64,000 bases of DNA, taken from Ignavibacteriota bacterium (GTDB taxonomy: Bacteria; Bacteroidota; Ignavibacteria; Ignavibacteriales; Ignavibacteriaceae). Shown here one piece after another: positions 51,590-61,889 of this stretch; the stretch's first letter is position 1, and every line of letters begins with the position of its first letter. The stretch covers positions 310,001-374,000 of the forward strand of contig CP053446.1 in assembly GCA_013285405.1 (NCBI GenBank). The letters are read 5' to 3'. The position numbers and the translations under genes were made by a program. The notes under the pieces were generated by a model, which saw only the letters and a list, made by a program, of their open reading frames with translations, had not been told where the DNA came from and did not search any database.

Positions 51590-51617
51590 TTGTCATCTCA
51601 TATTAAAATTGCAATCA

Positions 51618-51737
51618 GGCTAAAGCCAATTAATATCAGATAAAATTTATAACCCCGAACTAAAAGTCGGGGTTAATAGCCACATCATTTAAGATGTGGA
51701 CACTGATTTACAAAAAAATAAACCGGGTTTTAACCCG
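51618..51737. repeat. Four-hairpin intergenic element, copy A
   Basis: Between the end of the RND operon and ppk2. In order on the plus strand: GGC-TAAA-GCC (51618-51627); AACCCCG...CGGGGTT with inner ACT/AGT (51651-51674); TTAATAG and then CCACATC-ATTTAA-GATGTGG (51680-51699); CGGGTT-TT-AACCCG (51724-51737). The same four stems in the same order and orientation occur at 61720-61842. They may also help end the RND transcript. Confidence 0.75.
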
Positions 51738-51744
51738 ATTGAAG

Positions 51745-61655: not shown

Positions 61656-61719
61656 GGTTGCACCTAAATTGAATTTTAAATAGTTAAATGATCACAAAGC
61701 TGATCGCTAAAAACTAATT

Positions 61720-61842
61720 GGGCTAAAGCCCTATTTTGTTTAGCGGGCTCATTAATTTCCCCGACCTGAAGGTCGGGGCTAATAGCCACGCACTTCAGTG
61801 CGTGGTTAATTAACCCGCCCAAGTTAAAATGGGTTTCAACCC
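61720..61842. repeat. Four-hairpin intergenic element, copy B
   Basis: Between the asparaginase and Dcu genes. In order on the plus strand: GGGC-TAAA-GCCC (61720-61731); CCCCGACC-TGAA-GGTCGGGG (61759-61778); CTAATAG and then CCACGCAC-TTCA-GTGCGTGG (61786-61805); GGGTT-TC-AACCC (61831-61842). GCGGG (61743-61747) and CCCGC (61814-61818) can close the two central hairpins. It is the GC-richer relative of copy A. Confidence 0.78.
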
Positions 61843-61889
61843 GTAATAATATTAAATAAATGATTTTATTCATTGAATTGATCTCGGGA

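Follow-up and report, generated by a model that had tools for sequence, protein, structure and literature searches.

Relic four-hairpin elements of an Ignavibacteriota genome and their probable origin from the double-hairpin ends of an IS200-like transposon

Two four-hairpin elements, copies A and B, lie in the window that we analyzed (64,000 nt of Ignavibacteriota bacterium contig CP053446.1). They are probably relic non-autonomous REPIN-like elements descended from the double hairpins that form the ends of a TnpA-Y1 "subclass 1.2" transposon. Each is made of two inverted double-hairpin halves that have (T/C)TAATAG in common, and across the family the stem sequence drifts while the pairing, the loop and the foot are held.

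Copies A and B and the half-unit family

Copy A occupies positions 51618-51737 of the window and copy B positions 61720-61842. Read on the plus strand, both consist of an outer hairpin, an inner hairpin, a 7-nt core, an inner hairpin and an outer hairpin, with hairpins 3 and 4 forming an inverted version of hairpins 1 and 2. The left loops are TAAA or TGAA and the right loops are their inverse, of the TTTA/TTCA type. The coordinates, order, stems and spacer words that an earlier note had given for the two copies were all borne out, and the features are as follows.

51618..51627, plus strand: copy A outer hairpin 1, GGCTAAAGCC, loop TAAA (from sequence; half-unit 51615-51679(+), 53.3 bits)
51653..51672, plus strand: copy A inner hairpin 2, CCCCGAACTAAAAGTCGGGG, with one bulged A (from sequence and fold)
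51673..51679, no strand: copy A core TTAATAG, the 7-nt overlap of both halves
51680..51699, minus strand: copy A inner hairpin 3, CCACATCATTTAAGATGTGG (from sequence; half-unit 51673-51738(-), 67.2 bits)
51724..51737, minus strand: copy A outer hairpin 4, CGGGTTTTAACCCG (from sequence)
61696..61709, plus strand: copy B, possible degenerate left terminal inverted repeat, AAAGCTGATCGCTA (compare CAAGTTGACCGCTT of the G015 and G073 copies)
61720..61731, plus strand: copy B outer hairpin 1, GGGCTAAAGCCC (half-unit 61718-61785(+), 68.4 bits)
61759..61778, plus strand: copy B inner hairpin 2, CCCCGACCTGAAGGTCGGGG (from sequence and fold)
61779..61785, no strand: copy B core CTAATAG, common to both halves
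61786..61805, minus strand: copy B inner hairpin 3, CCACGCACTTCAGTGCGTGG (half-unit 61779-61844(-), 64.8 bits)
61831..61842, minus strand: copy B outer hairpin 4, GGGTTTCAACCC (from sequence)

Folding of both copies on both strands gave z values of -6.1 to -6.9 relative to dinucleotide shuffles, none of 200 shuffles being as stable. An Rfam search of the window returned no match above the gathering score except a tRNA. We built a covariance model of the half-unit, R1, from 22 halves (outer hairpin, inner hairpin and CTA foot), and it matched all four half-units of copies A and B with E values of 9e-9 to 5e-12. Since the 22 training sequences include copies A and B, independent support rests on the further copies.

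The half-unit spans about 62 nt. Its parts are an outer hairpin (GGCTAAAGCC type), a spacer of 20 to 30 nt, an inner hairpin of the form CCnCGnnn-TRAA-nnnCGnGG and the foot C(T/A)ATT. Searching the genome with R1 yielded 19 halves, 18 of them paired and one solo. Three pairs stand foot to foot and overlap by 7 nt (type II: A, B and C1:2079434-2079587), and five stand back to back with 4 to 14 nt between the halves (type I: 924k, 1105k, 1238k, 1970k and 3306k), in the layout AATAG, inner, outer, outer and inner hairpin, CTATT. One further pair, at 2835k, brackets a transposase gene. All nine paired elements are intergenic by an ORF-based check. In the third type II copy (L154, C1:2079434-2079527), about 28 nt have been inserted into one of the inner-hairpin loops; the matching copy in the sister species G002 lacks them. 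Six genomes together held 10 foot-to-foot pairs, seven with an overlap of exactly 7 nt, and 24 short back-to-back pairs; type I is the commoner miniature form and type II, to which A and B belong, the rarer one.

Because the stems vary, BLAST with copy B alone found few copies and returned pieces of other elements. Among the 79 relatives, 61 have at least one R1 match, with at most 58 half-units in one genome among the 66 candidates scored per genome; some of the sequences counted had served in model training. The covariance-model scan that the earlier note proposed recovered further copies, in this genome and in relatives, and their pairing is preserved.

Conservation of pairing, loop and foot

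The stems covary strongly: across 110 halves, the covariation score was 0.515, compared with 0.149 for shuffled alignments and at most 0.086 when the structure was slid. In this alignment, which was fitted to the structure, 94.8% of cells are paired and 12 of 13 pairs show two-sided changes; the original MAFFT alignment gave the same picture. The feet of the 110 halves are CTATT in 47 cases, CAATT in 25 and CTAAT in 10. On the opposite strand they read A(A/T)T(A/T)G, which is not a GTAG-type tetranucleotide. When 137 inner hairpins were oriented by their foot, the loop was TRAA in 134 and the inverted loop TTYA in none, at loci gathered with the model and with patterns that favor agreement between TRAA and the foot. 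Held pairing, loop and foot are what an HUH enzyme recognizing a folded single strand would produce, and they are also compatible with a template-switch repair that keeps the loop.

Comparison with G002 bears on how the pairing is kept. Copies A and B are absent at the matching intergenic sites of that species. The intergenic sequence there is too diverged for exact ends to be read, and no clean-ended pair of an empty and an occupied site was recovered. The elements at 924k, 1105k and 2079k, in contrast, are common to both genomes. Pairing by hand of 11 hairpins at these common sites gave eight compensated, six one-sided and three broken pair changes, and eight compensated changes would rarely be expected from independent changes. 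In the inner stems at 1105k, several adjacent pairs changed together; the spacers differ too, and a new insertion may have replaced the old one there. Pairing kept after insertion is the observation least explained by mobility alone, if the transposase gene is dead.

The earlier note had offered arm-to-arm correction of palindromes as one explanation. On this account, the covariation would be mainly mutational, as quasipalindrome correction, through template switches at replication, perfects imperfect palindromes without selection. Such switching has been described as able to change stems and keep the loop through hairpin priming (PMC8794818), and the jointly changed neighboring pairs at 1105k fit it. 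It would, however, sometimes invert the loop when it crosses it, and the polarity of loop and foot is inverted in 0 of 137 hairpins; arm-to-arm correction is possible but insufficient alone, and the joint changes at a shared site may instead reflect a new insertion that replaced the old one. We consider it unlikely that this process is the main source of the covariation.

Selection on a transcript would be a second source of compensated changes, if the host kept the elements as RNA structures for 3' end protection, attenuation or termination. The eight compensated against six one-sided changes at the three G002-common sites and the very stable folds of copies A and B are consistent with such a role, as is the transcribed strand, on which G-U outnumbers A-C by 7 to 2, although these counts are few. 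Also in its favor, two sites on the gene strand of copy A are terminator-like; outer hairpin 4 of that copy is terminator-like on the minus strand, with a stem at 51740-51721 followed by TATTTTTTTG. Copy B has no such site, and for this reason we rejected plain intrinsic terminators as an account of the elements in general. G-T is about as frequent as A-C over all halves when these are read in half-unit orientation, wobble pairs being rare, and the genes around half-units are mixed in placement (40 co-directional, 20 convergent and 12 divergent). Together with the absence of A and B from G002, these results speak against the suggestion that the copies are RNA elements ending or stabilizing transcripts, and we give a host RNA role a low probability.

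The transposase gene and the origin of type II

The half-units at 2835k bracket C1:2835374-2835802, which encodes a 143-aa Y1/HUH protein related to IS608 TnpA. It scores 92 bits with PF01797, above the cut-off, and 65.6 bits with the IS200/IS605 model NF033573 (cut-off 55), but only 31.3 bits with the RAYT model NF047646 (cut-off 80), and hence the partner is not a RAYT. Its motifs, DHIH, WQ and x-I-x-N-Q-E-E-H-H, fit TnpA-Y1 subclass 1.2, an assignment made by motifs and length; homologues in relatives have the motif Y-x-x-x-Q-x-x-H-H. The position of the IS608 nucleophile, the catalytic tyrosine of the IS200/IS605 family, is Tyr in 37 of 37 relatives and His113 in this genome. The sole tnpA copy here is therefore predicted to be inactive as read, an assembly or sequencing error being possible, and the elements of this genome are probably immobile fossils.

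Half-units with their feet outward surround most of the 38 tnpA homologues that we collected, which include named Aequorivita viscosa and Bacteroidetes or KSB1 metagenome-assembled genomes: 22 have them on both sides, 13 on one side and three on neither. All 25 genomes with a close tnpA homologue contain at least four half-units, compared with 19 of the 54 without one (Fisher p 9e-9, uncorrected for kinship). At least one half-unit is present in 36 of these 54 genomes and none in 18; units in genomes that lack a close tnpA require gene loss or other helpers. The earlier proposal of a non-autonomous mobile family is well supported: copies are many, they are present or absent between sister species, and the transposase gene is bordered by the same hairpins.

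Other Y1 genes were seen alongside this one. A second gene of this genome, C1:2547697-2548017 (L013 1346-2003), is a RAYT by NF047646 (83.7 bits, cut-off 80) and has on its flanks GTAG-tagged hairpins whose loops are again TRAA/TTYA and whose stems are CCTCAACC; it is a REP system alongside the IS200-like one. On either side of two further RAYT-like genes (L012 1428-2085 and L014 1107-2095) stand long palindromes, ACTAACCCAATTTC... and GTGAGACTCACC..., which look like the genes' own repeat ends.

We infer from these arrangements that TnpA recognized, cut and mobilized the elements and that they are immobile here; the origin of type II is likewise inferred. The transposon would carry one half per end with the inner hairpin outermost, in the order AATAG-inner-outer-tnpA-outer-inner-CTATT, and loss of the gene would leave the type I miniature; type II would consist of two halves abutted foot to foot over the 7-nt core. 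TnpA would recognize each half as a folded single strand, through its shape, TRAA loop and foot, would cut at the foot and would join the ends in the manner of IS608 and REP transposases. The stem sequence would then be free provided that it pairs, and compensated stem changes would follow. Type II has the halves of the transposon turned inside out. It might represent chromosomal copies of a circle junction, at which the right and left ends of the transposon's single-stranded circle are joined, with the 7-nt core as the sealed junction and integration via the outer hairpins, a reading that we regard as unlikely; if it were true, an IS200-like enzyme would leave inside-out junction elements behind.

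The main rival for the movement of A and B is a DDE-type MITE. According to this reading, which is possible but improbable on balance, type II elements including A and B would be relics of a MITE with terminal inverted repeats ACTCAAGTTGACCG...CGGTCAACTTGAGT and a nested-palindrome body, and the hairpins would be cargo or structural filler not moved by TnpA. The type II copies of G015 and G073 do lie inside such a MITE, with 171 and 170 bp between near-perfect CAAGTTGACCG repeats that extend to ACTCAAG, and type II may therefore owe its movement to another transposase. Other three-hairpin MITEs, in G003, G007, G012 and G041, end in the same terminal repeat, two of them with duplication-like flanks of 5 to 7 bp, and the type II copies of G003 and G033 have one or two weak repeats. 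Left of copy B, one of 18 flanks tested, the repeat is matched weakly (AAAGCTGATCGCTA, 10 of 14 positions; about 1% of shuffles do as well), and the right side has no partner. Against this, the repeat is missing at copy A, at the 2079k copy and its G002 counterpart, and at two G018 copies; the ACTCAAGTTGACCG repeat family is absent from this genome; and the hairpins, loops and feet of type II are those of the tnpA ends. No autonomous partner of the ACTCAAGTTGACCG repeat was found in complete or near-complete genomes.

The ACTCAAGTTGACCG repeats delimit a multi-copy MITE family of 138 to 199 bp (L185, L193, L209, L214, L216-L218, L220, L222, L223 and L225), with three internal hairpins, AACCGTTGAAACGGTT-type outer ones and a long central palindrome. 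Near-identical type I elements in G082 (L160-L163) lie within a repeat bounded by GGAGTTACGCAA and TTGCGTAACTCC, and another repeat, GAGGCTGTGTGAAAATT, occurs at L125 (G018) and to the left of the 1238k element in this genome. Near-identical G082 and G007 copies were rejected as a guide to element ends, because in these the repeated sequence continues past the hairpins and reaches other terminal repeats, in G082 GGAGTTACGCAA.

Relation to known systems

The family is ordinary in kind and new in its ends and arrangement. Like IS200/IS605 elements such as IS608 and ISDra2, it has an HUH/Y1 TnpA and subterminal hairpins at both ends. Each end here carries two hairpins and is an inverted copy of the other, whereas IS608-type ends are not known to form inverted repeats. 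BIME-type REP arrays share the alternating orientation and the head-to-head pairs seen in type II but lack its precise shared core of 7 to 9 nt. Dense, BIME-like half-unit arrays of alternating orientation surround a tnpA gene at G043 C1:182600-187400 (L116) and at L042.

The resemblance to REPINs and RAYTs (Bertels and Rainey 2011, PMC3116915) lies in short, extragenic, inverted hairpin doublets, in a type I tag placed outward beside the hairpin foot and in a Y1 transposase gene with the same ends. The differences are that the partner here is an IS200-class TnpA, that the tag is A(A/T)T(A/T)G and not GTAG, that each half has two hairpins and that the copies counted, among 66 candidates scored per genome in relatives, number tens and not hundreds. 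Subclass 1.2 as surveyed by Quentin et al. (2018, PMC6006769) agrees in protein length (143 aa here, median 148 aa), in the DHIH, WQ and Y-x-x-x-Q-x-x-H-H motifs (the last in relatives), in Bacteroidetes-type hosts and in low gene copy number. That survey lists the subclass without REP or terminal structures and without IS properties, whereas the genes here are bracketed by double-hairpin ends and accompanied by dispersed gene-less copies. We found no published link between a REPIN-like family and this IS200-class subclass in the open-licence literature, and an earlier description may exist.

A little-studied branch of HUH enzymes, TnpA-Y1 subclass 1.2, thereby gains concrete double-hairpin ends and dispersed non-autonomous copies, in a system intermediate between IS200/IS605 insertion sequences and REP/REPIN systems. 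Such defined ends make binding and cleavage directly testable, and the orthologous copies with compensated stem changes are suited to testing selection on pairing against palindrome correction.
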